Below are positions 8,245 through 57,319 of a stretch of 64,000 bases of DNA, one piece after another (the first letter of the stretch is position 1; each line of letters begins with the position of its first letter). The stretch is from Pseudarthrobacter sulfonivorans. GTDB lineage: Bacteria > Actinomycetota > Actinomycetes > Actinomycetales > Micrococcaceae. A program made the position numbers and the translations under genes. The stretch is from assembly GCF_001484605.1 (NCBI RefSeq), contig NZ_CP013747.1:1054001-1118000 (forward strand), in the 5' to 3' direction. The notes beneath the pieces were generated by a model. It was not told where the DNA came from. It saw only the letters and a list, made by a program, of their open reading frames with translations, and ran no database searches.

Positions 8245-8265
8245 GGGTTTCGACAGGCTCATTCC
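8245..8265 (-). repeat. Copy of the GGTTGAGCCTGTCGAAACC dispersed repeat
   Basis: Read on the minus strand this is GGAATGAGCCTGTCGAAACCC, differing from the core by GGAAT in place of GGTT at its left end. The TGA within it terminates the small frame at 8259-8420. It lies between that frame and the DUF6350 start. Confidence 0.7.
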
Positions 8266-8420
8266 CCCTGCGAGACGCGCCTCACCAGAGTTCGTAGTCC
8301 GCGGCCGGCGAGGCCCGTGGCAGGCGAAGAACCGGACGACGACGGCGGGACGGCCGCCGCTGGTGATGGCGCCGTCGTCGGGCGTTCAGACTGTCGGGGC
8401 GCCTCATCCGGGTCGCTCAT
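8259..8420 (-). CDS. Possible small Ser/Pro/Ala-rich protein upstream of DUF6350
   Basis: A 53-residue frame from ATG 8420 beginning MSDPDEAPRQSERP. It has an Ala/Pro/Ser-rich middle and a basic end (GRGLRTLVRRVSQGE). Its TGA lies in a copy of the dispersed repeat. It is on the same strand as, and just upstream of, the DUF6350 gene, so the two could be cotranscribed. No clear ribosome binding site and no recognised family. It may be a real short protein or chance open sequence. Confidence 0.35.
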   Translation of the reverse strand: MSDPDEAPRQSERPTTAPSPAAAVPPSSSGSSPATGLAGRGLRTLVRRVSQGE

Positions 8421-8521
8421 GTCGCTGGGCAGATGTCCCCATCCGGGCCTGATTCGGCGCTTTTTCCGCGGGTCCGCCGTAAAATTGGAATGTCCGCAAT
8501 CAGTGGTTGGAGGCAGAAAAA

Positions 8522-8980
8522 ATGACTACCGCATCCCCACATGCACACGTTCATTTTGGGCGCGCAGACGTCCAAAATGCGGGCATGGGAGTAGGTATCC
8601 TGTTGTTGGTGGTGGGTGCCCTGGGCTTTATCCCCGGCGTCACCACCCAGTACAGCGAATTGATGTTCCTGGGACCTGATTCCCATGCAATGTTCCTTGG
8701 GCTGTTCCAGGTGTCCATGCTGCTCAATATTGTGCAGCTGGCCATCGGCGCAACGGGCTGGGCGATGTCCCGGACCGAACATGGCGCACGGAACTTCCTC
8801 ATCGGAGCAGGCGCGCTGTACATCATCCTCAGCATTTTCGGGCTCAGTGTCGGCGTTGACTCGGCGGCCAACTTCCTGTCGTTCAACATGGCTGACAACT
8901 GGACCCACCTGGTGCTGGGCGTAGCGATGATAGCTGCTGGCTGGCTGTTCTCCAGGAACATGTCCGGCGAGAGGAAATAG
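8522..8980 (+). CDS. DUF4383 family membrane protein
   Basis: A 152-residue protein with four hydrophobic helices (about 25-45, 65-85, 95-112, 122-140). Polar loops carry the DUF4383 features, such as an Asn/His-rich segment before the last helix (NMADNWTHLVLG). The family is widespread in Actinobacteria and of unknown function. GGAGG precedes the ATG at 8522 (GGTTGGAGGCAGAAAAA). A terminator-like hairpin follows at 9056. Family call good; function unknown. Confidence 0.85.
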   Translation: MTTASPHAHVHFGRADVQNAGMGVGILLLVVGALGFIPGVTTQYSELMFLGPDSHAMFLGLFQVSMLLNIVQLAIGATGWAMSRTEHGARNFLIGAGALYIILSIFGLSVGVDSAANFLSFNMADNWTHLVLGVAMIAAGWLFSRNMSGERK

Positions 8981-9055
8981 CCCGGAAATGACAAACCGGG
9001 AAACAGGAGCCGCGAATGAGAAATGATCAATAAGTTCTGAATTTTCGTCCTACTC

Positions 9056-9103
9056 GCCGGTGCAGTTGCCGCGTTCCGCGACCAGCTGCACCGGCTTCTT
9101 TGT
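9056..9103 (+). terminator. Rho-independent terminator after the DUF4383 gene
   Basis: A 13-bp stem pairs GCCGGTGCAGTTG (9056-9068) with CAGCTGCACCGGC (9083-9095), one G-U pair included. The loop is 14 bases and TTCTTTGT follows. Confidence 0.75.
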
Positions 9104-9201
9104 GCGCGACGGCGACGAAAACTAATGCTGGACGGCGGCTGGGGCCGAGCGTACGCTAATGCCCATCGGCCGCTAATGCCCATCGGCGAGGGGGGAATCG
9201 G

Positions 9202-10023
9202 ATGGGGGCGATACTGCGGGCTCGTTGCCGCTCCGCGTCCCGGCCTGTGTTGTTGGCCCTCCTGACCGCTTTGGCGTGGCTCGTGTGGGGAGCGGGAACA
9301 GCCACCGCTTCAAGCCCCGTCCCGGATGCCGGAGGCCTTCTGAAGCCCGTTTCGTCCGTTCTTGCGAAACCCCGTCCTGTTCCGGTGCCTCCCGCCGTGG
9401 TGAGCTCAAGCGGAACTGCACTGGCAACCGCAACGTCCCTCGCGGATTCGGCTGCGGCCGCCGCAAACATGTTGGCTGCCCCCGCGCTGCCGGCGGTCAC
9501 CGGCACTGTTGATACTGCCACTGCCCTGGTGCCCGGGCTTTCCGATCTGCTGCCCGTTCCTGGCATACGGCCGCTGCCTGGCCAGCCACCGCTTACGACG
9601 CCGGCACCCGGCCCGGTGCCAACGGCGGCACCCAGCCTCCCGGCGTCGAGCGCGGTTGCGGAGGGCAGCAATGCGGGCGTTAGCCCGGCACCGGCCGGGC
9701 CGGTGGGCCTGGCGGCGACCAACGCCCCGAGGCTCGTCTTCGGCCCGGCCCAGGACCGCTCAGGCTTGGCCTCCACCCCGGAGGCAACGGCAAGCGCTTC
9801 CGGCCCCAAAAACAGGCCGCAAAACCCTGCGCTGCGAATTCCTCCGGCCCTGGCCAATGGCGCCGGGACGGCCAATTCCGGGTCAGCCGGAGGGTCCGAG
9901 GGGGCGGCTGACCTTGGCGGGTCCTGGCCATTCCTCCCCACAGCCACCAGTGGACCACACCTGTCCGGCGCCGTGACGCTGCCGGCCGGTCCTTCCTTCG
10001 ATCCAGGGTCCTCACCCGACTGA
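9202..10023 (+). CDS. Secreted Ala/Pro-rich low-complexity protein
   Basis: A 273-residue protein with an N-terminal export signal (Arg-rich start, hydrophobic LLALLTALAWLVWG, cleavage near ATA-SS). The rest is almost entirely Ala, Pro, Ser, Gly, Val and Thr, with few charges and almost no aromatic residues, suggesting an extended, disordered extracellular chain. No domain is recognised and no sortase or anchoring motif is visible. A candidate 28-codon peptide follows 92 bases downstream. The reading frame is convincing (signal peptide, third-position GC); function is not inferable. Confidence 0.72.
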   Translation: MGAILRARCRSASRPVLLALLTALAWLVWGAGTATASSPVPDAGGLLKPVSSVLAKPRPVPVPPAVVSSSGTALATATSLADSAAAAANMLAAPALPAVTGTVDTATALVPGLSDLLPVPGIRPLPGQPPLTTPAPGPVPTAAPSLPASSAVAEGSNAGVSPAPAGPVGLAATNAPRLVFGPAQDRSGLASTPEATASASGPKNRPQNPALRIPPALANGAGTANSGSAGGSEGAADLGGSWPFLPTATSGPHLSGAVTLPAGPSFDPGSSPD

Positions 10024-10114
10024 ACAGGTCATCTCTGCCCTTTTCGCGGCAGACCATGACCACCGCGCACCACCGGCGCGCGGACACCACGTTCAGTCAA
10101 GGAGAAAACCCGTC

Positions 10115-13410: not shown

Positions 13411-14616
13411 GTGAGGATCGCAATTGTTGCCGAGTCGTTCCTGCCGCTGATGAACGGAGTGACCCACTCCATCCTGAGGGTGCTTGAACACCTGGAGGAC
13501 CAGGGCCACGACGTCCTGGTCATCGCCCCTTCTACCTATGCCGTCTCCGAGTTCGTGGGACCGGCCGAGGTGGTTCACGGCGCGACGGTGCACCGGGTTC
13601 CCGCAGTTCCGCTGGCTGGCTACACCAACGTGCGAGTGGCGATGGGCGGTGTGTACCGGGTCAAGCGAATCCTTGCCGACTACGCACCCGACGTTGTCCA
13701 CCTCGCATCGCCGTTTATCCTCGGGTGGCGGGCAGTGCAGGCCGCGCATCAGTTGGGGATCCCCACCATAGCCATCTACCAGACCGAGGTTCCCAGCTAC
13801 GCCGCACGCTATGGTGTGCCGTTCCTGGAGAACTGGGCGTGGAACCGGGTGGAGAATATCCACTTGCTGGCCACCCGGACGCTGGTGCCGTCCACCTTCG
13901 CGCTGAACCAGTTGCGCGGCCGCGGGATTCCGCGCGTGGGCATGTGGCGGCGCGGTGTGGATACCGCGCGGTTTTCGCCGGAAAAGCGCGACGCCGGGTG
14001 GCGGGCAACGGTTGCCCCCGGCGGTGAGCGCATCATCGGCTACGTCGGCCGGCTGGCCATCGAAAAGCAGGTGGAGGACCTCGCCGCGCTCGCCAACGTC
14101 CCGAACACCAAGCTGGTGATTGTGGGCGACGGACCCCAAAAGTCCGCCCTGCAGGAAGCCCTGCCGGGCGCCGTGTTCACCGGGTTCCTCGGCGGTGAGG
14201 AGCTGGCGAAGGCGGTGGCGTCCTTCGACCTTTTTGTCCATCCCGGCGAGTTCGAGACGTTCTGCCAGACCATCCAGGAGGCCATGGCATCGGGGGTGCC
14301 GGTGGTGGCCACGGGCCGCGGCGGGCCCCTGGACCTGGTGGAAAACTCCCGTACAGGCTGGCTGTACCAGCCCGGCGACCTGGCCGGTTTCCGGGCCCGG
14401 GTGATGGACCTGATGGGCGACGACGCCAAGCGCCGCGCGTTCGCCACGACAGCGCACGCCTCGGTCCAGGCGCGGACGTGGCCGGTGCTCAGCGCCGAGC
14501 TGGTGCGTCAGTACCAATCAGTAATCGCCGGAGAACCGTTGGCTGAAACCGTCGAAACCAAGAGCCGCCGCCCGGTGGTTGAGCCTGCCCAAACCAAAAG
14601 TGGAGCGTCCCTGTGA
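13411..14616 (+). CDS. GT4-type glycosyltransferase, mannosyltransferase-like
   Basis: A 401-residue cytosolic GT-B enzyme. The N-terminal acceptor domain starts MRIAIVAESFLPLMNGV, and the donor domain has YVGRLAIEKQV and the E-x7-E element HPGEFETFCQTIQEAMASG. It most resembles actinobacterial GDP-mannose-dependent transferases that mannosylate membrane lipids (MgtA/PimB-like). GTG start. The C-terminal tail (VVEPAQTKSGASL) is read from a copy of the dispersed repeat. The stop overlaps the UDP-glucose dehydrogenase start by 4 bases, suggesting a shared role in cell-surface glycan or glycolipid. Donor sugar not certain. Confidence 0.85.
   Translation: MRIAIVAESFLPLMNGVTHSILRVLEHLEDQGHDVLVIAPSTYAVSEFVGPAEVVHGATVHRVPAVPLAGYTNVRVAMGGVYRVKRILADYAPDVVHLASPFILGWRAVQAAHQLGIPTIAIYQTEVPSYAARYGVPFLENWAWNRVENIHLLATRTLVPSTFALNQLRGRGIPRVGMWRRGVDTARFSPEKRDAGWRATVAPGGERIIGYVGRLAIEKQVEDLAALANVPNTKLVIVGDGPQKSALQEALPGAVFTGFLGGEELAKAVASFDLFVHPGEFETFCQTIQEAMASGVPVVATGRGGPLDLVENSRTGWLYQPGDLAGFRARVMDLMGDDAKRRAFATTAHASVQARTWPVLSAELVRQYQSVIAGEPLAETVETKSRRPVVEPAQTKSGASL
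14541..14595 (+). repeat. Dispersed-repeat copies inside the glycosyltransferase 3' end
   Basis: A degenerate GGCTGAAACCGTCGAAACC lies at 14541-14559 and a better copy, GGTTGAGCCTGCCCAAACC, at 14577-14595. Both are translated as the glycosyltransferase tail (AETVETK, then VVEPAQTK). Confidence 0.65.
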
Positions 14617-24757: not shown

Positions 24758-24888
24758 GCATTTTCCTCCTGCCTGGCCGGGGTGCGGTGAGAGGCCGCAT
24801 GAACACCAGTATGCGGCTGCAGGCCCGCGGATTCGCGCAACACGCAGGCGGTGGTGACGAACCTAACTGCGGCCCGGTCGAGAGCTGT

Positions 24889-24933
24889 GATCGAGCCCGT
24901 CGAGATCCAGGTTTCGACAAGCTCAACCACCGG
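24889..24933. repeat. Facing pair of dispersed-repeat copies
   Basis: A forward, degenerate copy (GATCGAGCCCGTCGAGATCC, 24889-24908) faces a well-conserved reverse copy (GGTTTCGACAAGCTCAACC, 24910-24928, continuing ACCGG to 24933). Together they can form a hairpin. They lie in the 245-base gap between the Gln-rich protein and the reductase, which holds no gene. Confidence 0.75.
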
Positions 24934-40938: not shown

Positions 40939-40942
40939 CCGG

Positions 40943-40962
40943 GGATTGAGCCTGTAGAAACC
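40943..40962 (+). repeat. Degenerate dispersed-repeat copy after ctaD
   Basis: GGATTGAGCCTGTAGAAACC differs from the core by two substitutions. It lies 4 bases after the ctaD stop and at the 3' end of the frameshifted gene on the other strand. Confidence 0.65.
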
Positions 40963-43343: not shown

Positions 43344-43389
43344 GGGTGGCTGAGCCTCCACGATCCGGTGGTTGAGCCTGTCGAAACCC
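43344..43389 (+). repeat. Dispersed-repeat copies ahead of the alpha/beta hydrolase
   Basis: An exact core GGTTGAGCCTGTCGAAACC lies at 43370-43388, preceded by CCGGT. A decayed partial copy (GGGTGGCTGAGCCTCCAC) starts at 43344. Here the repeat sits just before a start codon, unlike most other copies. Confidence 0.85.
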
Positions 43390-43406
43390 AGGCGTACCGT
43401 TCTCCC

Positions 43407-44216
43407 ATGGGACCAATTCGGGCCATTCTTCTACCGGGCGCTGTACTCCCCGCCCAGGCCGCCTTCGGCGGACTCATCGCAGCCCTCGGGCCGGATGTCC
43501 AGGCAATCGCCAAGGATCTCGAGCTCTACGCGGAAGATGGGCCGCCGGCGGACTGGAGCCTGGACACAGAGATCGACGGCGTGCTGCGCGAAGCCGATAC
43601 CCGGGGATGGGAGACGTTCCACTTAACGGGCTATTCAGGTGGCGGCGCGGCGGCGCTGGCGTTCGCTGCCAAGCACCCGGGCAGGCTGCTGAGCCTGGCG
43701 CTGCTGGAACCTGCCTGGGCCGGGAACTGGGACTGGAGCCCTGCGTACACGGAGCTCCGGAAGAAGTACGAGCAGCTGGAAACACTCCCGCCGGAACAGT
43801 TCATGTCCGCCTTCATGAGGCTGGGAGTTAAGCCCAACGTCGTCCTTCCGCCACCGCCGGATCCCCCGCCGCCGTGGATGGCCAACCGGCCGGCGGGTAT
43901 CAGGGCGTTCCTGCGGACCTTCAAAGACTATGACCTGGAGAGGGCGCGTTTGGCTGCCTTTCGCCAGCCCGTCTACTTCGCCTTGGGCGGCCTGAGCAAT
44001 CCCCATGACTACGGCGATATTGCCAGCCGACTGTCGAGGGTCTTCTTCCCGGACTTCCACCTGGAAGTGTTCCCCAAGCGCCACCACTTCGACCCGCCAC
44101 ACCGGATCGAGCCCGAGCGGCTGGCTGAATTGCTCCGGCGGCACTGGGAGCAGGCGGAAGCCGGCACGGTGGCTGCGCCTGTCGAAACCGAGCCTCTCGA
44201 AACCCGCGGTGGTTGA
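43407..44216 (+). CDS. Alpha/beta hydrolase
   Basis: A 269-residue hydrolase starting MGPIRAILLPG. The nucleophile elbow is LTGYSGGGAAALAF (GxSxG, Ser near 74). The acid and His are in the last third (His in KRHHFDPPHR). A proline-rich lid segment (PPPPDPPPPW) is at about 150. ATG 43407 is preferred over GTG 43368, which would only translate a dispersed repeat. At the other end the repeat again supplies the tail: PVETEPLETRGG and the TGA are read from repeat copies. Substrate unknown. Confidence 0.8.
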   Translation: MGPIRAILLPGAVLPAQAAFGGLIAALGPDVQAIAKDLELYAEDGPPADWSLDTEIDGVLREADTRGWETFHLTGYSGGGAAALAFAAKHPGRLLSLALLEPAWAGNWDWSPAYTELRKKYEQLETLPPEQFMSAFMRLGVKPNVVLPPPPDPPPPWMANRPAGIRAFLRTFKDYDLERARLAAFRQPVYFALGGLSNPHDYGDIASRLSRVFFPDFHLEVFPKRHHFDPPHRIEPERLAELLRRHWEQAEAGTVAAPVETEPLETRGG

Positions 44217-44532: not shown

Positions 44533-44921
44533 TCATCTATCTGGACACGTCGGCTGTCCTCAAGCTTGTGGTCGAAGAGCCAGCATCATCCGCGGCCGCC
44601 CATTACCTCTCAACCGCGGCAGCCCAGGGCCACCAGCTGGTGGCTTCGATGCTCCTCTATACGGAACTTCATTGCGCGGCCCATCGTCGCGGATTTCCCG
44701 GCGAGCCCGTCAATACGGTCCTCGGCGCCATCAACCTGGTCGATCTTGCCCGTTCGGACCTTATGTACGCGGCAGCCCTGCCCGGCAAGCTCCGGAGCGC
44801 CGACGCCATTCATCTGGCGGCAGCCATCCGGCTGCAGTCCGACGTCATGGTGGCGTATGACGCCGAGCTCCTGGCTGCCGCCGTCGAGGCCGGCCTGAAC
44901 GTCCTCTCCCCCGGTGGTTGA
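44529..44921 (+). CDS. VapC-type PIN-domain ribonuclease toxin
   Basis: A 130-residue PIN-domain toxin with the acidic metal site visible: Asp6 in IIYLDTSAVLKL, Glu near 46 in LLYTELHCA, Asp near 98 in RSADAIHLA, and Asp near 114 in VAYDAELL. It would cleave RNA, probably tRNA. GTG start overlapping the antitoxin stop. The protein ends NVLSPGG with its Gly-Gly-TGA read from a dispersed-repeat copy. Confidence 0.93.
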   Translation: MIIYLDTSAVLKLVVEEPASSAAAHYLSTAAAQGHQLVASMLLYTELHCAAHRRGFPGEPVNTVLGAINLVDLARSDLMYAAALPGKLRSADAIHLAAAIRLQSDVMVAYDAELLAAAVEAGLNVLSPGG

Positions 44922-44938
44922 GCCCTGCCGAATCCGGA
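44911..44938 (+). repeat. Dispersed-repeat copy at the vapC 3' end
   Basis: CCGGTGGTTGAGCC (44911-44924) then CTGCCGAATCC: one inserted C and one A-to-T change against the core. The vapC stop TGA is at 44919-44921. Confidence 0.7.
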
Positions 44939-45950: not shown

Positions 45951-46220
45951 ATGGCAAGCACTAAAACACGGCGCTTGGAATTGCGCACGGATGAGACCAC
46001 GGATGAGTTAATCACGGAGGCTGCCGACCTTCTGCACGTGTCCAAGTCGGCGTTCGTCACCGAGGCCGCCCGGCAGGCCGCACAAAAAGTCATCTTGCGT
46101 TCGGACATCACTCTCATGGCACCCGAGGTCTTCGACGCCATGATGGCATCGCTGAACGCTCCGGACGAATCCGCAGAACTCGCCGCACTCGCCCACCTGC
46201 CGCGGCTTATCGGCCCATGA
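45951..46220 (+). CDS. TacA-like DUF1778 antitoxin
   Basis: An 89-residue ribbon-helix-helix antitoxin: RRLELRTDETTDELITEAAD, then LHVSKSAFVTEAARQAAQKVI, followed by a toxin-binding tail with MAPEVFDAMMASLNAPDE. GGAGGT lies upstream of the ATG. Its stop overlaps the acetyltransferase start by 4 bases (ATGA), as in TacAT pairs. Confidence 0.92.
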   Translation: MASTKTRRLELRTDETTDELITEAADLLHVSKSAFVTEAARQAAQKVILRSDITLMAPEVFDAMMASLNAPDESAELAALAHLPRLIGP

Positions 46221-46762: not shown

Positions 46763-48090
46763 AGGACACTCCGTCCACCACGCCGCGCTCCTTTAGCCTG
46801 CAGCGTGAATGGTCCGGGGCATTCACGCTGATGCTGCTGGCCCTGTTCATCGGCGCGGCGGTCACTGTCGTCGGAGTCCGGTTTGTGGTGAACGAGATGG
46901 AAGCTGCCACCGCCCGGCTCCAGGCCGAGTACGGCAGTGTCGCGGAGCTGACGGCCGCCCTTGAGACGCATGAGCAGCTGGGACACCAGTTGCTCGCGGC
47001 GGCACCCGTGAACCGGGAGGCATTTGTCCTGGAACAAAAGGAAATTGAGGAGCTCTTCCGGGCGGCCGCCGCAGCCGAGGCTGCGGACGAAGGCCGGCCC
47101 GATGCCCTGTCCGCGGCACAGCAGGACTGGCAGGCCGGCCTGGAGAACGGTGGCCTCTGGAGTTCCAACGTTCTGGAGCTCACGGGAAACAGTGCGGCTA
47201 ACGCCCCTGCCTTCGCCGCTGCCAGCTCGTCCGTCCGGACGCAGCTGGCCGCCATCCAGCAGTCCTCCCTCCAGGCGCTGAACAGGGGGCTCGTGGACAC
47301 GCGCGAGCTCGAAGGCCTCCTGGTGGTTGGCCGGATCGGGCTGTTCGTGGTGGCCATCGGCGCCACCCTGTACTTCCGCCGCCGGGTGGTCAAGGACCTG
47401 ATGTGGCCCGTCAACAGCCTCCGACGGGGCGTCCTGAAGCTGCAATCCGGCGACTACAGCCACCGCCTGGACGTGGCCCGGCGCGACGAGCTGGGCGAGG
47501 TGGCCGTGGCGTTCAACGGGATGGCCGCATCGCTGCAGGACAGCCATAAAGCCCTGACGCACCGTGCCACGCACGATGACCTCACCGGGCTCGCCAACCG
47601 TGCGGCCCTGGCCGAGCGTCTGCTGGCGTCCTTCGAGCCGGACAGCGACCGCCGGACGCGGCACGAGGGCCTGCTGTTCATCGACATCGACGATTTCAAG
47701 GACGTCAACGATTCCTTGGGCCATGAGGGCGGCGACGCGCTGCTGGCCCAGCTGGCCGAGCGGCTGCGGGCCAGCGTCCGCAGCCACGACTTGGTGGCCC
47801 GGCTGGGAGGCGACGAGTTCGCCGTCGTGGTTTTGGATAACGACGACGGCACTCCGGCAACGGGGCCCGTCGCCGAGCGGATCTATGAGGCTCTTAGCGA
47901 GCCGTTCGTGATTGGTGACCGCTCGTTGCGGGTGTCACTGAGCATGGGGGTCGCGCAGCGCACCGCGGACACCGCGGACGTGACGGAGCTGCTGCGGCAG
48001 GCCGATTCGGCCATGTACCGGGCCAAGCTCGGCGGCAAGGCCCGGTACGAGGTCCACGGCGGGGAATCACCGGTGGTCGAGCCTGTCTAG
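46759..48090 (+). CDS. Membrane HAMP-GGDEF diguanylate cyclase
   Basis: A 443-residue sensor. TM1 is about 18-42, an extracytoplasmic helical domain 43-190, TM2 about 193-212, HAMP about 214-268 (VNSLRRGVLKLQSGDYSHRL), and GGDEF about 280-435 with intact RLGGDEFAVVVLDND. It makes c-di-GMP in response to an external or periplasm-like signal. GTG start overlaps the tacT-like stop. The final residues PVVEPV and the stop come from the dispersed repeat, which is shared with the convergent dehydrogenase. Confidence 0.94.
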   Translation: MKDTPSTTPRSFSLQREWSGAFTLMLLALFIGAAVTVVGVRFVVNEMEAATARLQAEYGSVAELTAALETHEQLGHQLLAAAPVNREAFVLEQKEIEELFRAAAAAEAADEGRPDALSAAQQDWQAGLENGGLWSSNVLELTGNSAANAPAFAAASSSVRTQLAAIQQSSLQALNRGLVDTRELEGLLVVGRIGLFVVAIGATLYFRRRVVKDLMWPVNSLRRGVLKLQSGDYSHRLDVARRDELGEVAVAFNGMAASLQDSHKALTHRATHDDLTGLANRAALAERLLASFEPDSDRRTRHEGLLFIDIDDFKDVNDSLGHEGGDALLAQLAERLRASVRSHDLVARLGGDEFAVVVLDNDDGTPATGPVAERIYEALSEPFVIGDRSLRVSLSMGVAQRTADTADVTELLRQADSAMYRAKLGGKARYEVHGGESPVVEPV

Positions 48091-48092
48091 AC
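48070..48092 (+). repeat. Dispersed-repeat copy carrying two convergent stop codons
   Basis: CCGGTGGTCGAGCCTGTC (48070-48087) then TAGAC. The palindrome CTAG at 48087-48090 supplies TAG for the GGDEF gene on the plus strand and TAG for the dehydrogenase on the minus strand. Confidence 0.75.
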
Positions 48093-49073
48093 GACTGCGT
48101 TGACCGCAGCATCACCGTTCAACACGCGCGCGATGTCGCCCACTACTGTCGTCCCCATCGCGGCGTTCGACATGTCGGTGAATGCTCCGATATGCGGCGT
48201 AAACAGCGTGCGGGGGGCTTTCAGCAGCGGATGATCCGCGGGCGGGGGCTCCGGCGTGAAGGCGTCCGCCGCGTATCCCCCGAGCGCTCCTGAGCTGAGC
48301 GCCTCGGCGATCGCAGGGCCATCGACGAGGTCGCCGCGTGCCGCGTTGACCAGAAGCGTTCCCGGCTTCAGTCGTTGCAGAACGTCCCCGGAGACAATCG
48401 GGGTGCCATTGGGGGCGCTGGGCAGGTGCAGAGTGATCACGTCGCACAGCAGGAAGATCTCGTCGAGCGAGGCAGGTGTTACTCCTGCGGCGTGCATCAC
48501 CTCAGCCGGCACAAACGGGTCGTGAGCGAGGAGCCTTGGCCCGAACCCTTGGGCCCGCCGCGCGACGGCCTGCCCAATGCGGCCAAACCCCACAACGCCC
48601 ATGGTCCGCCCGGACAGCTGCGGGCCGAAGAATCGGTCCCATCGGCCAGCCATTACGCTCGCATGTGCCGGCACAATCTGGCGCGCAAGGGCCAGCAGAA
48701 GTCCGAGCGTGAGGTCCGCCACGGCGTCCGAGTTGCCACCCGGCGCGTTGACCACCGTGATACCTCTCTTGCGGGCTGCTTCCAGATCGATGTTGTCTGT
48801 GCCCACACCGTGCTTGGCGATCACCCGGAGCCGCGGCGCGGCATCCATGACCTGCGCATCCACAATGTCAAGACCCACCAAGAGCGCGTCGCAAGAGCCG
48901 ACCTGTTGGGCCAGGTCCGCCGTGCTCAAAGGGTGCTGACCGGACGCACGCCGCGCCTGCAGTCCGTGCCGGCGCAGTTCGTCCCAGGGCTCCTCCGAGT
49001 GTTGTCCGAAGCTCGGCGTGGTGATGAGAACGTCACCCAGTGCAAGGCCGGGCCCGTCTTCCAGGTCCGTCAT
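48087..49073 (-). CDS. D-isomer-specific 2-hydroxyacid dehydrogenase
   Basis: A 328-residue NAD-dependent enzyme of the SerA/phosphoglycerate dehydrogenase group. The Rossmann motif is GVVGFGRIGQAVA. The catalytic Arg is in LVNAARGDLVDG, Glu in AADAFTPEPP, and His in FTPHIGAFT. ATG 49073 chosen with GAGGGG upstream; an earlier start would overlap the transporter gene. It ends in a shared repeat with the GGDEF gene. Downstream of the Nramp-like gene, it probably belongs to the acid-sugar catabolic set. Confidence 0.9.
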   Translation of the reverse strand: MTDLEDGPGLALGDVLITTPSFGQHSEEPWDELRRHGLQARRASGQHPLSTADLAQQVGSCDALLVGLDIVDAQVMDAAPRLRVIAKHGVGTDNIDLEAARKRGITVVNAPGGNSDAVADLTLGLLLALARQIVPAHASVMAGRWDRFFGPQLSGRTMGVVGFGRIGQAVARRAQGFGPRLLAHDPFVPAEVMHAAGVTPASLDEIFLLCDVITLHLPSAPNGTPIVSGDVLQRLKPGTLLVNAARGDLVDGPAIAEALSSGALGGYAADAFTPEPPPADHPLLKAPRTLFTPHIGAFTDMSNAAMGTTVVGDIARVLNGDAAVNAVV

Positions 49074-49095
49074 CGTCTGTCCCCTCAGGCTGTTC

Positions 49096-50508: not shown

Positions 50509-50679
50509 GGGACTCCTTGATATGGGACCAAACGGCCGCCGCAGATCGAAATATGGGTTGGGATAAACAGGGGAAAAATGAGGTGAAGCGGACGCACGTC
50601 ATCGGTGCGAAGTGTGTGGATCCATCGATGCGTGTTCGACGGAAAGTGTCATGCCTGACGCGGGTCAGAAAGTTTCGGG

Positions 50680-51468
50680 TCAGCCCTTAGTGTTGACGGC
50701 GCTGGTGGCGGCGGCGAGATGGGCCTTGGCGATCTGTTCCAGGTGGGTGAGGTCCGAGGCGATGGTGGTGAACGTGTAGCCCTGGCTGAGCCGAAGTGCG
50801 GCCACGTCCCCCGCGGGTGTGTGGATGCCCGCGGCGATGCCGGCGGAGGCTGCGGCCTCGGCGATGGTCTTCAGCGCGGCGTTGAATTCGGTTTCGATCG
50901 CGGGGTCCCCGGGGAATGCCCCGCCCACGGCGATGGCCAGGTCTGACGGGCCCACATAGATGCCGTCCAGGCCCGGGGTAGCGCAGATTTCCTTGACGTT
51001 GGCCAGACCGTCCGGTGTTTCGATCATGGCGAACACCAGCGTGGTGGCGTTGGCTTCGGCCGGCACCGGCCCGATCCGCAGGGCGGAGCGCATGGGTCCG
51101 TAGGAGCGTCCGCCCATGGGCGGGTACTTGGCTGCGGCAACGGCGGCGGCCGCATCAGCTGCCGTATTGACCAGCGGAACGATGACGCCCACGGCACCGG
51201 CGTCCAGGGCCTTTCCGATCGCGGTCAGGTTGTTGTCCTCCACCCGGACCATGCCGACGGCGGTGTGCCCGGCGTCGATGGCCATCAGACCGTTGAGCAC
51301 ACCCGAGTAGCCGAGCAGACCGTGCTGCGCGTCGAGTGCCACGTAGTCGTAGCCGAGCCGGCCGATGCGTTCGGTGGCCACGGGCGCGTCCAGCACTGCC
51401 CAGTAGCCCACCGCCTGTTCCCGGGCGCGGATCTTGCGGGCGAATTCGAGGGCCAGTTCGGATGTCAT
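50680..51468 (-). CDS. HpcH/HpaI-type class II aldolase
   Basis: A 262-residue metal-dependent aldolase of the 2-keto-3-deoxyglucarate/4-hydroxy-2-oxoheptanedioate group. The barrel shows DAQHGLLGYSG (catalytic His), metal-binding Glu in MIETPDGLANV, and Asp in IYVGPSDLAIAVGG. It cleaves 2-keto-4-hydroxy acids to pyruvate plus an aldehyde. ATG 51468 is chosen since the sequence MTSELALEFARKIRAREQ begins the family alignment; upstream codons are antisense to the reductase. Part of the acid-sugar cluster with the Nramp-like gene and the reductase. Confidence 0.9.
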   Translation of the reverse strand: MTSELALEFARKIRAREQAVGYWAVLDAPVATERIGRLGYDYVALDAQHGLLGYSGVLNGLMAIDAGHTAVGMVRVEDNNLTAIGKALDAGAVGVIVPLVNTAADAAAAVAAAKYPPMGGRSYGPMRSALRIGPVPAEANATTLVFAMIETPDGLANVKEICATPGLDGIYVGPSDLAIAVGGAFPGDPAIETEFNAALKTIAEAAASAGIAAGIHTPAGDVAALRLSQGYTFTTIASDLTHLEQIAKAHLAAATSAVNTKG

Positions 51469-51547
51469 ACGGAATCTTTTACCTTCAGGTCGGGTGTTCG
51501 GAAAAGCGGATCGGGATAGGTAATGCAGGAAGATATCCCAGAATGCG

Positions 51548-52537
51548 TCAGCGGTTGTAGGCGGGCATCGGGCCGCGGAGTCCGGCTCCAACGGCGTCGC
51601 ACGCCTCCACGACGTCGGCCGGGAGCGGCCCGTTGGCCACCGCGGCGATGTTGGCCTGGAGCTGTTCCACCTTGGAACCGCCCAGCAGCATGGAGCCCAC
51701 GCCGTCGCGGTAGGCCAGCCACCGCAGCGACAGCTCGGCAAGCGTGATGCCAAGCTCCTTCGCAACAAGGGAAAGTTCGTTAATGGCGTCGAACAGCTGC
51801 CGGTCCCAGTAGCGCTGGGTGTACATGGCGGCAAGTTTGGAGTCGCCGTAGCGGCCCTCGGTGGGCTTGGCCTCGAAGCTGTGCTTGCCGGTGAGCAGGC
51901 CGCCGCCCAGGGGGTTGTAAACCATGGTGTGGACATTGTGCGTGGCCGCGAATTCGAGGTACTCCTCCTCAACCCGGCGCGCCACCAGGTTGTACAGCTG
52001 CTGCGCGACGACGGGCCGCGGCGCCCCCACTTCGCGCGCCACGTGGATGACGTCGGCGATCTGCCAGGCGGCGAAGTTGGACACACCCAGGGCGCCGATC
52101 TTCCCCTCGGCAACCAGCTCCGCCACCGTGGACAGGGTCTGGTGCAGGGGCGTGGCCCGGTCCGGCTGGTGCAGGTAGAACAGGTCGATGCTGTCCACGC
52201 CGAGCCGGCGGAGGCTGCCCTCCACACTGCTGCGCAGCCCGGCCGGGGACAGGGGTGAGTTCGCTCCGTGGTCCGGGTGCGGCATGCCGGCCTTGGACGC
52301 GAGGATGACCTCGCCGCGCCGTTCCTTCAGGAGGCGGGACAGCATTTCCTCCGTGGCTCCCCCCACATAGGCGTTTGCGGTGTCGATGGTGGTGATGCCG
52401 GCGTCGAGCGCCTCCTCCACCATCCGCCCCGCGGTGGCCTCGTCAACGGTGTCGCCGAACGTCATGGTTCCCAGTACCAGCCGGGAGATGGGGAGTCTCA
52501 GGCCGTCCACCTGGGTGCCTTCGGGCTGCTTGCTCAT
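51548..52537 (-). CDS. Aldo/keto reductase
   Basis: A 329-residue NADPH-dependent reductase with the full tetrad: Asp in TIDTANAYVGG, the Tyr four residues later, Lys in ILASKAGMP, and His in LFYLHQPD. The C-terminal NADPH loop has LGGSKVEQLQANI. ATG 52537. It is the first gene of the leftward group and shares the control region 52538-52738 with the divergent kinase-dehydrogenase fusion, so it is probably coregulated with it. Confidence 0.92.
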   Translation of the reverse strand: MSKQPEGTQVDGLRLPISRLVLGTMTFGDTVDEATAGRMVEEALDAGITTIDTANAYVGGATEEMLSRLLKERRGEVILASKAGMPHPDHGANSPLSPAGLRSSVEGSLRRLGVDSIDLFYLHQPDRATPLHQTLSTVAELVAEGKIGALGVSNFAAWQIADVIHVAREVGAPRPVVAQQLYNLVARRVEEEYLEFAATHNVHTMVYNPLGGGLLTGKHSFEAKPTEGRYGDSKLAAMYTQRYWDRQLFDAINELSLVAKELGITLAELSLRWLAYRDGVGSMLLGGSKVEQLQANIAAVANGPLPADVVEACDAVGAGLRGPMPAYNR

Positions 52538-52627
52538 GCGTTGATTCCTCGAGGTTGCTGTGCTTGGTAGATCGGACCATGACGCTATCGCTGATCTCCG
52601 GCCGTGTTCCCCATCACTCTGGCATCT

Positions 52628-52644
52628 TTGCGCGTAACGCGCAA
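52628..52644. promoter_or_regulatory. Perfect palindrome TTGCGCGTAACGCGCAA, candidate operator
   Basis: Two 8-bp arms around a single central A, in the divergent region between the reductase and the fusion gene. A related, imperfect site (TTAGCGCAATTCGTGCAA, 52650-52667) follows 5 bases later. The DeoR regulator encoded downstream is the natural candidate binder. Confidence 0.6.
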
Positions 52645-52738
52645 GTCGCTTAGCGCAATTCGTGCAACCGTGTCATGATGTAAGCATCCCGCTTCCGGCG
52701 GGGTCACAGCCAATGACGTACCCATGGAGAGGAACAAC

Positions 52739-55108
52739 GTGGCTCACGTGTTTGTGCAGGCCGACGATTTCTCCGGCGCCGCCGAGGTTGGCTACTGCTT
52801 TGTGGAGCACGGGCTCTCTACGCAGGTCTTGCTGGGAACGCCCGACGGCGGCGCCTCCTCGCCGGGGAACGTCACCGACGTTGTAGTAGTCGATACACAC
52901 TCCCGCGGCCTTCCCGAAGCCGCCGCCGAAGCGCTGGCGACCGAGGCTTTCTCAAGTTCCGCCGCTTCGGAGGCTCAGGTGTCCTTCAAAAAGACCGATT
53001 CCCTGTGGCGCGGCAACATCCGCGCCGAGGTTGCCGCGCTGACAGGCCTGGGCTATCACGCGGTCATTGCCGGGGCACTCCCCCAGCTGGAACGTTCGGT
53101 CCGGGACGGAAAGCCGTTCGCTGCCGGGGTCCCCCTGGGGCAGACCGAGCTGTGGCAGGCCGAGATTTCCGCGCCGCCCGCTGACATCCTTTCCCTTCTC
53201 AGCCCGGACAAGGCTGCCTCGGTGCAGACCGTGGACCTGGCCGAGCTTCGGTCCGGATCACTCGCCGCGAAGCTGGCCGGAAAGCTGGAATCCACCGAAC
53301 CAACGCTGGTGGTGGTTGACGGCGAAACGGTCCCGGACCTGCAGATCGTAGTGGACGCCCTGCTGGAGCTTGGCTTCAGCGCCGGTGGCAGGCGCGTGGT
53401 GCTGGTGGGCACCGGCGGAGCAGCGGACACGCTCGCGAAGCGGCTGGCCGCACAACTTGCGCGAAATGCGCAGGCGGCGGCAAGAGCTGACGCGACCAGT
53501 GCGGAACGGAAGCTCACCGCCAGACCCGTTCTCGCCGTCGTCGGCTCCGCCTCCGGGACTGCGCAGAAGCAGCTGGCTCAATTGGAGGACCGCGGCTTCA
53601 CCGTGGTCCGGCTCAACCCGGACTCCGCAGACACAGCCGGTGCTTATGCCGCCGAACTGGCCCAGGTTTGGCGGTCCTTGGCAGCCGGAACCTGCGTGGC
53701 TATCACGGTTGCCGCCGCAAAAGTGGACCCGTCAAACGCCGCGCGCATTGTCCAGGCGCTCTCCCGCTTCGCCGCACAGGCAGCAACGGAATCGGGCGCG
53801 GACCTGATCCTCACCGGCGGCGAGACGGCCCGCGAAGTCCTGGACGCCGTCGGCCTCCAGCGGCTGGTGCCGCTCGCGGCCGTGCAGCACGGCGCTGTGC
53901 TCAGCCGCGCCGATGACGGAACGCTGGTGGGCACCAAGCCCGGCAGCTTCGGCGATGACCTCGCCCTTGTACAGCTTTACAACGAAATCCGGGAGCGCCG
54001 CGGCCAGTCCGCAGACGCGCCCGCCAACACCCTTCCCAGCAAGACTTCCGAAAGACCTGGAGCAGAAATGACCACCGCAGCAGCAAACAAGACCGAGCAG
54101 GCCGCCCTCCCCCATATCGCCGTCACCATGGGCGACGGCGCCGGTGTTGGACCCGAGGTGGTGGTGGCCGCGGTCCTGGACCCGCAGAGCAACGCCGAGT
54201 GCCGGCCCGTGGTGATCGGGGACGCGCTGCGCCTCCGCCAGGCCGCGGACATCCTGGGCATCGAGGCAGATATCCGGACCATCGCCTCGGTGGAGGACGC
54301 GGTGTTCATGCCGGGCCGGGTGAACGTGATCGACATGGCGCTGCTGCCGGAGGACCTGCCCTGGGGCCAGCTCTCCCCCGTGGCCGGGCACGCTGCCTAT
54401 GAATACATCCGGGTGGCCAGCGAGCTGGCCATGGCCGGGAAGGTGCAGGCCATCTGCACCGCGCCGCTGAACAAGGAGGCCCTGCACGCCGCCGGGCACA
54501 TCTTCCCCGGGCACACCGAACTGCTGGCGCAGCTGACCGGGACCGAGGAAGTGTCCATGATGCTCTCGACGCCCAAGATCCGCGTCATCCACGTGACCAC
54601 GCACATCGGGCTGATGGACGCCATCCGCAAGATCAACCCGGACCTGGTGGAACGCACCATCCGCCGCGGCCACGAGGCCCTGATCCGCGCCGGCATCCCG
54701 AACCCGAAGATCGGCGTCTGCGCCATCAACCCGCACGCCGGCGAGAACGGGCTGTTCGGCCAGGGCGAGGAAGCCGAGAAGATCGAGCCGGGAGTGAAGG
54801 CCGCGCAGGCCGCCGGGATCGACGTCACCGGCCCGCTGCCCGCGGACACGCTCTTCTTCCTGGCCGGCCGGGGCGATTACGACCTGGTGGTGGCCATGTA
54901 CCACGACCAGGGGCACGGCCCCGTGAAGGTGCTGGGCATCGAGGCCGGCGTGAACATCACCGTGGGCCTGCCTGTCATCCGCACCTCCGTGGACCACGGC
55001 ACCGCCTTTGACATTGCCGGCAAGGCGATCGCCGATTCGCGCAGCATGGTGGAGGCCCTGCACCAGGCGGCGGAGATGGCCACCCGGCCCGCCGTGGTCG
55101 GTGGTTGA
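52739..55108 (+). CDS. Fusion: four-carbon acid-sugar kinase + PdxA-type dehydrogenase
   Basis: A 789-residue single ORF of two enzymes. Residues 1 to about 425 are a DUF1537 four-carbon acid-sugar kinase (QADDFSGAAEV, SFKKTDSLWRGN, ILTGGETAREVL). Residues about 455-785 are a PdxA-family NAD dehydrogenase (CTAPLNKEALH, FPGHTELLAQ, INPHAGENGLFG, MYHDQGHGPVK). The usual MGDPxGIGPE reads MGDGAGVGPE. Separate DtnK/PdxA2 pairs convert D-threonate or D-erythronate to dihydroxyacetone phosphate. GTG 52739 has GGAGAGG upstream. The linker retains an internal GGAG and ATG at 54068. It ends VVGG-TGA in a repeat. Confidence 0.9.
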   Translation: MAHVFVQADDFSGAAEVGYCFVEHGLSTQVLLGTPDGGASSPGNVTDVVVVDTHSRGLPEAAAEALATEAFSSSAASEAQVSFKKTDSLWRGNIRAEVAALTGLGYHAVIAGALPQLERSVRDGKPFAAGVPLGQTELWQAEISAPPADILSLLSPDKAASVQTVDLAELRSGSLAAKLAGKLESTEPTLVVVDGETVPDLQIVVDALLELGFSAGGRRVVLVGTGGAADTLAKRLAAQLARNAQAAARADATSAERKLTARPVLAVVGSASGTAQKQLAQLEDRGFTVVRLNPDSADTAGAYAAELAQVWRSLAAGTCVAITVAAAKVDPSNAARIVQALSRFAAQAATESGADLILTGGETAREVLDAVGLQRLVPLAAVQHGAVLSRADDGTLVGTKPGSFGDDLALVQLYNEIRERRGQSADAPANTLPSKTSERPGAEMTTAAANKTEQAALPHIAVTMGDGAGVGPEVVVAAVLDPQSNAECRPVVIGDALRLRQAADILGIEADIRTIASVEDAVFMPGRVNVIDMALLPEDLPWGQLSPVAGHAAYEYIRVASELAMAGKVQAICTAPLNKEALHAAGHIFPGHTELLAQLTGTEEVSMMLSTPKIRVIHVTTHIGLMDAIRKINPDLVERTIRRGHEALIRAGIPNPKIGVCAINPHAGENGLFGQGEEAEKIEPGVKAAQAAGIDVTGPLPADTLFFLAGRGDYDLVVAMYHDQGHGPVKVLGIEAGVNITVGLPVIRTSVDHGTAFDIAGKAIADSRSMVEALHQAAEMATRPAVVGG
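54059..54070 (+). promoter_or_regulatory. Internal ribosome binding site and ATG for the PdxA-like half
   Basis: GGAG at 54059-54062, 5 bases, then ATG 54068 in frame with the fusion, just before TTAAANKTEQAALPHIAVTM. It looks like the original start of a separate dehydrogenase gene and could still yield a free PdxA-like protein of 346 residues. Confidence 0.6.
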
Positions 55109-55122
55109 GCCTGTCGAAACCC
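55100..55122 (+). repeat. Dispersed repeat at the fusion-gene 3' end
   Basis: An exact core GGTTGAGCCTGTCGAAACC (55103-55121) preceded by GGT. The fusion-gene stop TGA is 55106-55108. Confidence 0.85.
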
Positions 55123-55179
55123 GGTACGGCCGGGGCCGGAACTAGCATGGTAACCACGCCCACGGGAAGGAAACCGGGA

Positions 55180-55953
55180 ATGCTGTCGGCAAATGCCAGG
55201 CGCGAGGAGATCTACCACCTCGCCGTCACCACCGGCCTGGCCTCCGTGGAGGAACTGTCCGCCCGGTTCGAGGTCACGGCCTCCACCATCCGCCGCGACC
55301 TGGCGCTCCTGAACGGGCAGGGCCGGCTGGCCCGCACCTACGGCGGCGCCATGGCCCTGGGCGCCCACCCGGAAGCGTCGCTTCGACAGCGCACCGGCGA
55401 GGCCTTTGAGCAGAAGCACGCCATCGCCCGCTGGGCGGCGTCCGTGATCCGGCCCGGGGAAAACATCCTGCTCGACGCCGGCTCCACCGTGGGTGCCCTC
55501 GCCCACGAGCTGCGCGCTTTTGATCGGTTATCCGTGACCACGCCGGGCATCAACACCATGCAGGAACTGGCCGAGTCCCAGGGCATCGAGGTGGACTGCC
55601 TGGGCGGCCGGCTGCGGAGCCTGAGCCAGAGCTTCGTGGGTCCGCTGGCCGAGGCAGCCCTGGAGCGGATGAGCTTTGACCGCGTGTTCCTCGGCGCCGA
55701 CGCCGTCACCGCCGAGGACGGCATCTGCGAGGCCGACCACTCCCAGACCCGCCTCAAGGAACTCATGGCCCGACGCGGCAATCTTGTGTATGTCCTGGCG
55801 GACTCCTCCAAGCTCGGCCTGCGGCCCTTCCACGCGTGGGCGCGGCTCGCGCTCCCCTGGACGCTGGTAACGGACGACGGCGCCGACCCGGGTCAGGTGC
55901 AGAAGTTCCGGGACGCAGGGGTCGACGTTGAGGTGGCCGCCGTCGGTGGTTGA
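55180..55953 (+). CDS. DeoR family transcriptional regulator
   Basis: A 257-residue sugar-phosphate-sensing repressor. The N-terminal HTH (SVEELSARFEVTASTIRRDLALL) is followed by the DeoR effector domain with ILLDAGSTVGALAHEL, VFLGADAV and CEADHSQTRLKELM. ATG 55180 chosen with GGAAGG 10 bases upstream; ATG 55147 is possible. It follows the kinase-dehydrogenase fusion by 71 bases and probably controls the cluster, responding to a phosphorylated intermediate. It ends AAVGG with Gly-Gly-TGA from a repeat. Confidence 0.9.
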   Translation: MLSANARREEIYHLAVTTGLASVEELSARFEVTASTIRRDLALLNGQGRLARTYGGAMALGAHPEASLRQRTGEAFEQKHAIARWAASVIRPGENILLDAGSTVGALAHELRAFDRLSVTTPGINTMQELAESQGIEVDCLGGRLRSLSQSFVGPLAEAALERMSFDRVFLGADAVTAEDGICEADHSQTRLKELMARRGNLVYVLADSSKLGLRPFHAWARLALPWTLVTDDGADPGQVQKFRDAGVDVEVAAVGG

Positions 55954-55993
55954 GCCTGCCGAAACCCGCGGTGGTTGAGCCTGTCGAAACCAC
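55945..55993 (+). repeat. Tandem pair of dispersed repeats after the DeoR gene
   Basis: GGTTGAGCCTGCCGAAACC (55948-55966, one change) and an exact core GGTTGAGCCTGTCGAAACC (55973-55991), 6 bases apart, each preceded by GGT. The DeoR stop TGA is 55951-55953. Confidence 0.85.
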
Positions 55994-56157
55994 CGGTTGG
56001 CCCATGAGCCAGACCTTCCCGCGGCCGATGTAGGGGAAGCCAAGGAAAGCCTGCCGCCAGGAAAGGAATGCCGCGTGGGCTGCCGAGATCGAGCCCGACA
56101 CATTCCTTGCATCACTTAGCCATTGCACTTAGTGTTCCTCCCGTGTTACTTTGCCAT

Positions 56158-56499
56158 ATGGCTAAGTATCCGCAGCTGAATAGCGTCTTCCAGGCGCTGG
56201 CCGACCCCACCCGCCGTGCCGTGCTGGGGCGGCTGGGTGAGGGCCCTGCAAGCATCAGCGAGTTGGCAAAGCCTTTCGATATAACGTTGCCCTCCTTCAT
56301 GAAGCACATCCACCTTCTGGAGGAGAGCGGCTGGATCCAGACGCGCAAGGAGGGCCGGGTGCGCACTTGCGTCATCGAAAAGAAATCGTTCGCCGTGGTC
56401 GAAGCCTGGCTGTCCGAACAACGCGACATCTGGGAAGGCCGCACTGACCGGCTTGAGCACTTCGTCACCACCACCCATGAAAAGGAACAGGAACAATGA
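56158..56499 (+). CDS. ArsR-type HTH regulator
   Basis: A 113-residue winged-helix protein of the ArsR group that pairs with AHSA1 genes: NSVFQALADPTRRAVLGRLGEG, then ISELAKPFDITLPSFMKHIHLLEESG, then IQTRKEGRVRTC. No metal-binding cysteine motif, so it is probably not a metal sensor. ATG 56158; its stop overlaps the next start by 4 bases. CACTTAG occurs twice just upstream (56113-56134), a possible operator. Confidence 0.9.
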   Translation: MAKYPQLNSVFQALADPTRRAVLGRLGEGPASISELAKPFDITLPSFMKHIHLLEESGWIQTRKEGRVRTCVIEKKSFAVVEAWLSEQRDIWEGRTDRLEHFVTTTHEKEQEQ

Positions 56500-56975
56500 A
56501 CTCAGCCACACACCCGGATCTCGATCTGACAATTTCGCGAATCATCAGCGCGCCCCGCTCCGTCGTTTGGGGGGCCTGGACGGACAAAGCGAGCTTCGAG
56601 CAATGGTGGGTGCCTGCGCCTGCCGCCTGCAAGGTCCTGGAAATGGACCTCCGGCCCGGTGGATCATTCCTCACCCAGATCAGCGAGAACGGCGGCGAGT
56701 TCATGCCGCACATCAGTGGCTGCTTTCTCGCAATCGATGAACTCGAGCGAATCGTCTTCACGAATTCCCTGGTCGGCGGCTGGCGACCGGCTGAAGATCC
56801 ATTCATGACCGCGATCATCACACTGAAGGACCACCCGGAAGGTACCGAATACGTCGCCAACGTGATGCATCGCAACAACGCAGACCGGAACATGCATAAA
56901 GAGATGGGCTTCTACGACGGGTGGGGTACCGTCACGAGGCAACTCGCCGAACTAGCAGAGCAGCAGGCGCTGTAG
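56496..56975 (+). CDS. AHSA1/SRPBCC domain protein
   Basis: A 159-residue START-like protein: ISRIISAPRSVVWGAWTD, then FEQWWVPAPAACKVLEMDLRPGG and a C-terminal helix beginning MGFYDGWGTVTRQLAELAE. The family binds hydrophobic ligands or Hsp90-like clients; this bacterial group is functionally uncharacterised. It overlaps the ArsR-type gene, and such regulator-AHSA1 pairs are common. Followed by the relic region. Confidence 0.9.
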   Translation: MNSATHPDLDLTISRIISAPRSVVWGAWTDKASFEQWWVPAPAACKVLEMDLRPGGSFLTQISENGGEFMPHISGCFLAIDELERIVFTNSLVGGWRPAEDPFMTAIITLKDHPEGTEYVANVMHRNNADRNMHKEMGFYDGWGTVTRQLAELAEQQAL

Positions 56976-57000
56976 ACGCCCGCGGTGACGCGGCCCTCGG

Positions 57001-57112
57001 GACGCGCGGCTCGCGCTGCCCGGGACCCTGCTAACGGACGACGGCGCCGACCCGGCTGAGGTGAAAAGTTCCGGGATGCGGGGATGGCGGTTGAGGTAGC
57101 GGAGGTGCAGGG
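57001..57112 (+). pseudogene. Degenerate duplicate of the DeoR gene 3' end
   Basis: Bases 57004-57108 align almost without gaps to 55840-55944, the last 105 bases of the DeoR coding region. Exact blocks include GCGCGGCTCGCGCT and the 18 bases of the ACGGACGACGGCGCCGAC segment. Translation gives ARLALPGTLLTDDGADPAEV, then a one-base deletion shifts the frame and TAG follows. There is no upstream gene body, so this is a dead 3' fragment. Confidence 0.85.
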
Positions 57113-57131
57113 TCGGGCGTAGCATCCTGCC

Positions 57132-57281
57132 ACGGGTATCAACGCCACGAAGATCACCAAGGACGCGCTCACCGCAGACTTCCGGATCCTGGACTACGTC
57201 ACGACGCCGGGATCCCACGTCAGCACGAAGACCTCCTTCGCGATCCAGGACGGAGTAGCTGGGCTGCAGGTAAAGGGGTAG
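57132..57281 (+). pseudogene. Alkaline phosphatase D-like 3' fragment
   Basis: The last 49 codons of a decayed gene: INATKITKDALTADFRILDY, then VTTPGSHVSTKTSFAIQDGVAGLQ, matching the C-terminal strand pattern of PhoD-type alkaline phosphatases (TDFRxxDYVTTPG...F...G.PGL). No start or catalytic domain remains. It ends in TAG lying in a decayed dispersed repeat. The family is assigned by pattern memory; a profile search would confirm. Confidence 0.55.
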
Positions 57282-57319
57282 GGCCTGTCGGAACCCCGGT
57301 TTGGTTGAGCACCGAAACC
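57275..57319 (+). repeat. Decayed dispersed-repeat copies after the relics
   Basis: GGGGTAGGGCCTGTCGGAACC (57275-57295) and GGTTTGGTTGAGCACCGAAACC (57298-57319) each retain most of the core. The PhoD-like relic's TAG lies in the first. Confidence 0.6.

Follow-up and report, generated by a model that had tools for sequence, protein, structure and literature searches.

The 64,000-nucleotide stretch of the Pseudarthrobacter sulfonivorans chromosome analysed here (the window; contig NZ_CP013747.1, positions 1,054,001 to 1,118,000, or C1:1054001-1118000 of the 5.06-Mb genome labelled G000) carries, among others, genes for a glycosyltransferase, an alpha/beta-hydrolase-like protein, a PIN-domain protein, a GGDEF protein, a PdxA fusion protein and a DeoR-type regulator, and a short dispersed repeat lies in or beside all of them. 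An original prediction, made from the letters of the window alone, had proposed that this repeat systematically forms the last codons and the stop of genes, and that it could act as a mobile 3'-end module, a transcript-end signal or a recombination site. The dispersed repeat itself is real. When up to 3 mismatches are allowed, the window has 10 matches to its 19-base core, at 8246-, 14577, 24910-, 40944, 43370, 44171, 55103, 55948, 55973 and 57277 (the minus sign marking the reverse strand), against a mean of 0.04 in shuffled sequences. These ten places had all been listed, while two other listed sites are weaker, that at 48075 having 4 mismatches and that at 44911 one extra base; copies at 14541 and 44186, like the one at 48075, need 4-5 mismatches, and one chance core match at 59252 was left out of the counts. 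The whole genome holds 23 copies with up to 1 mismatch (14 of them exact) and 60 with up to 3, the reversed pattern giving 0 and 1, respectively, and the window is locally rich, with 5 of the 23 copies where 0.29 would be expected.

The repeat unit is a sharply bounded 24-mer, CCGGTGRTYGAGCYTGTCGARAYC, whose flanks are nearly flat on both sides when 142 distinct copies from three genomes of the genus are aligned. It is an imperfect palindrome consisting of a one-sided CCGGT tag, 4-base pairing arms and an 11-base core, GAGCYTGTCGA, around which four arm sets are found (GGTT/AACC, GGTC/GACC, GATT/AATC and GATC/GATC); the tag, beside the left arm, is unpaired, and its logo reads CCGGT, GTAG not being seen. 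Copies entered the 142-copy alignment only if 3 of their 4 arm positions were paired, a bias towards pairing, and covariation was therefore recounted without that demand in 95 distinct copies chosen by exact core and tag alone. Pair 1 is kept in 90 of them and pair 3 in 92, where independent arms would give 64.6 and 67.4, respectively; there is little variation in pairs 2 and 4, and pairs 5 and 6 stay at the chance level. A degenerate 22-base pattern that does not demand pairing gave 37 fully paired places among the 42 listed, the exceptions lying in G269, G151 and G228 (one each) and G218 (two). Neighbouring copies no more than 100 nt apart are arranged tags-outward in 20 cases (13 of them with gaps of 1-4 nt), tags-inward in 7 and directly in 22, and nested arrays resembling bacterial interspersed mosaic elements (BIMEs) occur in relatives (loci L101-L120).

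The placement of the copies was counted in three genomes of the genus, with genes called at a score of at least 15 by our own codon-model gene finder, which was trained on three genomes, made no use of annotation and by eye missed some genes. In G000 the census took in the surroundings of each of the 60 places with up to 3 mismatches, the window and five further 20-kb stretches; as it requires 2 of 4 tag bases, it holds 54 copies there rather than 56, and GATC-armed copies elsewhere in that genome lie outside it (3 among the 13 places listed of 28 matching the 22-base pattern). For G002 it took in every one of the 36 places that have no more than 1 mismatch, and for G005, partially, 12 stretches picked from 22 places listed of 70. 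Forty-nine of the 145 copies are centred between -20 and +40 nt from a stop codon (26/54 in G000, 15/46 in G002 and 8/45 in G005, against 3.8%, 3.5% and 3.1% of random positions), an enrichment of about ten-fold in P. sulfonivorans; with neighbours collapsed the counts are 23/47, 14/33 and 5/15. Start-codon windows hold 6, 1 and 2 copies in the same order, about 4% being expected. Near-stop copies run in the sense of the gene in 38 cases and antisense in 11 (two-sided p 1.4e-4, the p-values of this census treating copies as independent), and 40 of the 49 lie wholly downstream, beginning 0-25 nt past the stop. Of all copies, 84 are extragenic, and 40 of these are close to a stop, compared with 7-9% of random intergenic positions. 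The predicted non-random placement at gene 3' ends is thus borne out in all three genomes, an even intergenic spread not being seen; the systematic gene-ending role is not, given these downstream copies and the many that lie inside genes. The TGA of the repeat is in phase as the stop of a gene in only 7 of the 145 copies, one further gene-ending copy, at 48070, stopping by TAG, and therefore the gene-ending examples noticed at first are real yet represent a minority form.

Predicted genes contain 61 of the 145 copies, 9 of which are also near a stop, while random positions fall within genes in 78-89% of cases. Among the 40 sense copies 39 are in the frame read as PVVEPVET, none is in the RWLSLSK frame and one was called in the frame that meets the TGA; two of the 39, both in argH, contain the predicted start inside the copy. 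The 21 antisense copies are read as VSTGSTT (14), FRQAQPP (4) or GFDRLNHR (3), and after collapsing neighbours 21 of 22 sense copies are PVVEPVET and 12 of 15 antisense copies VSTGSTT. As had been claimed, the repeat gives stops or tails in different reading phases. Its host genes include that of a 2-oxoacid dehydrogenase E2 protein (L060) with its relatives, and that of a MazG-like protein (named by our own reading); one E2-like gene of G036 (L101) holds seven copies, with all spacings multiples of three. A DUF4194/MksE-like gene of G002 (L236 2936-3907; the label is a Pfam result from the L055 orthologue) has several VEPVET units in its N-terminal part. It could be argued that all this reflects chance or coding bias, with the stop phase as an artefact, taking into account that the motif holds a TGA and that the gene finder is home-made. 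This explanation is refuted, and left with practically no probability, by the shuffles and reversed controls given above, by the bias appearing in other genomes and under a score cut-off, and by the flat flanks.

The copies and related features of the window are collected in Table 1.

Table 1. Copies of the 24-mer in the window and the genes that they adjoin or enter.
Position	Strand	Feature	Remarks
8246..8269	-	Degenerate copy, GAAT left arm	Upstream of minus-strand gene 6893-8227, not a gene 3' end; traces of the site in G015, G006
14536..14559	+	Degenerate copy, in frame as PLAETVET in the glycosyltransferase tail	
14572..14595	+	Copy in the same glycosyltransferase gene, close to its C-terminus, in frame as PVVEPAQT	Native end kept
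24884..24907	+	GATC-armed copy, first of a tags-outward pair	
24910..24933	-	Second of the tags-outward pair	Between divergent genes
40939..40962	+	Copy beginning on the base after the stop of gene 39262-40938	
43365..43388	+	Exact copy just 5' of the alpha/beta-hydrolase-like gene	Pfam match slightly below cut-off
44166..44189	+	Copy in frame as TVAAPVET, C-terminal tail of the alpha/beta-hydrolase-like gene	Gap 50 nt, against 7 nt in G015
44208..44216	+	Half copy GGTGGTTGA giving Gly-Gly-stop	
44911..44935	+	Copy with one extra base across the stop of the PIN-domain gene (SPGG*)	
48070..48093	+	Copy read PVVEPV then TAG, end of the GGDEF gene	
55098..55121	+	Exact core from which the PdxA fusion gene, ending at 55108, takes its Gly-Gly-TGA	
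55943..55966	+	Copy supplying Gly-Gly-TGA of the DeoR-type regulator ending at 55953	
55968..55991	+	Second direct copy, extended arms	14 nt past the DeoR-type stop
57272..57295	+	Degenerate copy after a phosphatase-like C-terminal remnant	Label by our own reading

The four Gly-Gly-TGA ends originally described, at 44216, 44921, 55108 and 55953, are correct, although intact copies provide only the last two and the first comes from a half copy; the VVEP tails of the genes ending at 14616 and 48090 are likewise confirmed. The copy at 43365 is probably a 5' leader and not a coding, N-terminal VVEPVET, since in G015 the conserved ATG is preceded by a stop in the same frame; those at 24884/24910 and 8246 lie between divergent genes and not at gene 3' ends. 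At the site 14572..14595 the gap is 65 nt, against 29 nt in G015, G006 and G020, the last of which holds a repeat of its own within the 29-nt gap, and the G015 counterpart of gene 39262-40938 has the same protein end, NPDE*, with no repeat. Around the last copy, the region 56900-57300 holds what is left of a second DeoR C-terminus and, after it, a C-terminal piece with the end VSTKTSFAIQDGVAGLQ; in G020 (L125) a tail similar to this piece, VSTKASFAMRDRVPGL, is fused to the DeoR gene itself.

Sites free of the repeat are also found in relatives for genes that end in it. The PdxA fusion ends PAVVGG*tga in P. sulfonivorans and AV*tag in relatives (PAVAV in G015 and G021, PSVAV in G020, PAMAV in G003), six more distant matches ending otherwise, with a flank gap of 24 nt compared with 14 nt in G015 and G020. 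The DeoR-type regulator ends VGG* here and SS*, SG*, SSVG* and more in others, and the SPGG* of the PIN gene corresponds to SPNG*, SPGP* or SPGA* at the same position in the aligned relatives. Among the 20 readable purL loci of 24, the one of G004 is longer than the VTTETTKKFN type by exactly 24 nt and that of G000 by 21 nt, G019 has the same +24 length in decayed form, and G002 has an antisense remnant. The MazG linker varies among 23 genomes, with repeats recognisable in G000, G013, G004, G002 and G005. These empty sites agree with the mobility proposed for a 3'-end module, but systematic formation of the last codons or the stop, the other half of that proposal, is not supported, the TGA being in phase in few copies.

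Among acetate kinases from named organisms, the nearest to that of P. sulfonivorans belong to Arthrobacter and Pseudarthrobacter, which places the host in this group. The acetate kinase gene ackA was compared at 81 loci (one of them, L346, read to a wrong end); 8 of these show the core, at 1 mismatch or fewer, between -60 and +150 nt of the stop, and 73 do not. The repeat lies at the stop in P. sulfonivorans and L275, the stops of L271 and L279 fall inside a degenerate GATC-armed copy, and weak matches occur further downstream in L319 and L349. An end in VVGG* with no repeat at the stop is present in L277, L291, L309 and L316, L282 being a doubtful case; in L309 and L316 a copy follows about 26-31 nt beyond the stop. 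The same tail without the repeat, named beforehand as an observation that would count against the proposal, is therefore found in part, and a Gly-Gly tail does not by itself prove the presence of the repeat.

In argH the repeat comes after a TAA in the same frame, and the GTG of the repeat is the only ATG, GTG or TTG ahead of the conserved GALWGGRF; the nearest homologue, P0121, starts MAEQETTKSEATN. Peptides of the VEPVET kind stand at this N-terminal place in 3 of the 120 ArgH homologues listed (P0131, P0169 and P0203). A different N-terminal peptide, of the type GSPAERSEVGxRSG, is present in 12 of the 120 (P0122, P0123, P0132, P0140 as PVERS, P0144, P0171, P0175, P0178, P0184, P0198, P0210 and P0224), and has the look of another coding repeat, unrelated to the first, that occupies the same permissive place. 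Sites at prs, argG/argH, bioB and a guaB-like gene are common to several species of the genus in spite of large repeat turnover and change in copy number, and hence some copies are old and turning over in place.

With regard to a possible role in the transcript, single 24-mers fold at 0 to -5.8 kcal/mol (z -0.9 to +0.8), that is, no better than shuffles, so that any hairpin of the unit is weak, and the single-copy regions 55098-55130 and 40930-40980 do not exceed shuffles either. None of the 14 terminator-like sites predicted in 39000-58500 (12.8, sd 4.2, in shuffles) falls on a copy, nor did folding and terminator prediction show at the copies the GC-rich stem-loop and T run that mark an intrinsic terminator; Rfam had no match in the window at gathering score. 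A terminator, as one form of the suggested transcript-end signal, was rejected on these results. A functional 3'-end RNA signal in a wider sense (terminator, 3' stabiliser or translational brake in the mRNA) would explain the stop-window enrichment and the excess of sense copies, and repeat pairs can fold better, with -44.4 kcal/mol (z -5.1) for the pair in L062 and -19.9 kcal/mol (z -2.2) for the two copies at 55943-55995, so that an RNA role may exist for pairs. A parallel exists in the RepRanger paper, whose consulted sections describe ribosome stalling in E. coli by repetitive extragenic palindromes (REPs) lying no more than 15 nt from stops (PMC12306157), alike in downstream, stop-proximal position; here the single hairpin is weak and there is no evidence of stalling. 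We nevertheless consider such a signal unlikely, because the intragenic copies, the 15 of 36 sister genomes devoid of the repeat at up to 1 mismatch and the ackA loci lacking it argue against it, and because single-unit folding, terminator prediction and Rfam are all null, placement by insertion and selection is favoured instead.

The search for a mobiliser was limited to the Y1 class of transposases (PF01797), to which the REP-associated tyrosine transposases (RAYTs) belong, and within that class none was found accompanying the repeat in the genomes searched. P. sulfonivorans has no PF01797, which is present in 3 of 59 genomes (own included) and, within the genus, in one of 36 relatives, G032, whose two loci lack the repeat nearby and one of which adjoins a TnpB-like frame by our own reading. 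A set of 297 genomes from the order (own included) has 7 members with the 22-base pattern and 10 with PF01797, none of them with both. Of 25 genomes picked by eye, most of them for a raised count of the 13-base core, 9 have PF01797; the 20 loci taken from there and 16 others, 36 Y1 loci in all, are without a full element in the surrounding 1.5 kb or so, where 2 bare cores and 4 tagless cores with one mismatch are the only matches. An ordinary RAYT-mobilised REP, its Y1 transposase being too divergent or confined to unsampled strains, would fit the REP-like tag, the dimers and the arrays, and a RAYT may be patchy or lost; these negative results make it improbable. A mobile gene common to the neighbourhoods of the arrays was also considered and rejected, the gene families beside copies in at least two genomes looking ordinary (names by our own reading, except for a few genes scanned for domains).

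Taken together, we favour, at a probability of about 0.7, an orphan REP/BIME-like mobile repeat of the Arthrobacter/Pseudarthrobacter group, placed by insertion and selection and devoid of a terminator signature. The 24-mer would insert as a unit, alone or as pairs and short arrays, and selection would then filter the sites: insertion just past a stop codon would be harmless, and insertion at protein ends and in linkers would be tolerated, because 24 bases make 8 codons and one sense frame reads PVVEPVET. A sense insertion in the GGT-GGT-TGA frame near the end of a gene would turn the TGA of the repeat into the stop, and in argH the GTG of the repeat would have become the only start left. We infer that copies move as 24-base units by means of some enzyme, lost or other, and that selection rather than targeting makes the pattern. 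Several points weigh against this explanation. Movement is only inferred, as no mobiliser of the class searched was found; single units fold at shuffle level; the net gain of 24 nt is clean once and decayed once more, other junctions showing net +10, +36 and +43 nt; the enrichment near stops among intergenic copies fits pure filtering only if most other intergenic sites are also selected against; and the sites common to several species could also mean function. A bolder version is possible but doubtful, namely a mobile 8-codon unit selected for compatibility with translation in every phase (GTG start and PVVEPVET linker, Gly-Gly-stop, and VSTGSTT linker on the reverse strand), spread by a non-Y1 enzyme and a recurrent source of protein ends, starts and linkers.

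The favoured orphan repeat has several counterparts among known systems, here as described in the consulted sections of the papers cited. REPs lie mostly downstream of genes, often no more than 20 bp from the 3' end, the termini of GTAG REPs often supply the stop codon, and REPs are also found within genes (PMC3733652). The GTAG REPs, and the BIMEs and REP doublets forming hairpins (REPINs) mobilised by RAYTs (PMC3733652, PMC2817692), share with the 24-mer a tagged, dispersed palindrome of 20-40 bp, tags-outward dimers and BIME arrays, and GTAG REPs (PMC3733652) in addition the position just 3' of genes, an end that supplies the stop and in-frame intragenic copies. However, the tag here is CCGGT and not GTAG, the arms have 4 bp, a stable single-unit stem-loop and a repeat-flanked Y1 gene are lacking, and the stop is a TGA from the arm, not a TAG from the tag. 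The CGTC REPs (PMC3733652) resemble it in having no dedicated transposase (only the Y1 family being tested here), in dimers, in intragenic units and in patchy distribution, but the 24-mer has neither their tag nor their 8-9 bp stem, 4-5 nt loop and CCA tail, and they are mostly from Alphaproteobacteria in that paper, whereas the repeat here is actinobacterial. The Rickettsia palindromic elements (RPE, as cited in PMC3733652) are alike in their in-frame insertion into many unrelated protein genes, RPE-1 being described there as longer. With respect to miniature inverted-repeat transposable elements, the flanks are almost without information and one site is net +24 nt, with few recent events to judge from.

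The sections of PMC3733652 drawn on here make no mention of Arthrobacter or actinobacteria; Arthrobacter livingstonensis appears in a count table of PMC12306157, in whose consulted text no such motif is named. A literature search, in which the best-ranked matches were judged by title or the opening of the abstract, gave no published account of the 24-mer or its peptides. The behaviour of the repeat is already published for other REP families (PMC3733652), its end motif being new; the tags, stem and transposase that define those families are not matched. The REP/BIME way of life, with its 3'-end placement and in-frame insertion, would thereby extend to a genus of actinobacteria whose repeat belongs by its tag and stem to neither of the published superfamilies and for which no RAYT was found.

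Copies per genome range from 0 to 70 among the sister species, and because of this range the genus could be useful for studying the movement of REPs that lack a RAYT and the origin, through insertion, of new protein tails, linkers and perhaps start codons. The same range, together with the lack of strand skew in P. sulfonivorans (32 forward and 28 reverse copies, for which a strand-skewed chromosome motif was rejected), makes very improbable a DNA site for a chromosome protein or for recombination selected for its sequence, in the manner of Chi sites, FtsK-orienting polar sequences (KOPS) or uptake-type sites. Such a site would agree with the arm covariation, which fits a dyad recognised as DNA, and with the clustering of copies along the chromosome: 44 loci with up to 2 mismatches lie mainly at 0.5-2.5 and 3.0-4.0 Mb (Kuiper p 0.0001), with none in the first 0.5 Mb or the last 1.0 Mb. 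Outside the genus, the 22-base pattern reaches 18 copies, some of them in tandem arrays (L110, L111, L117), in G151, which belongs to another family of the order, and the 13-base core gives 60 matches in G612, from the same class, where the reversed control gives 13.

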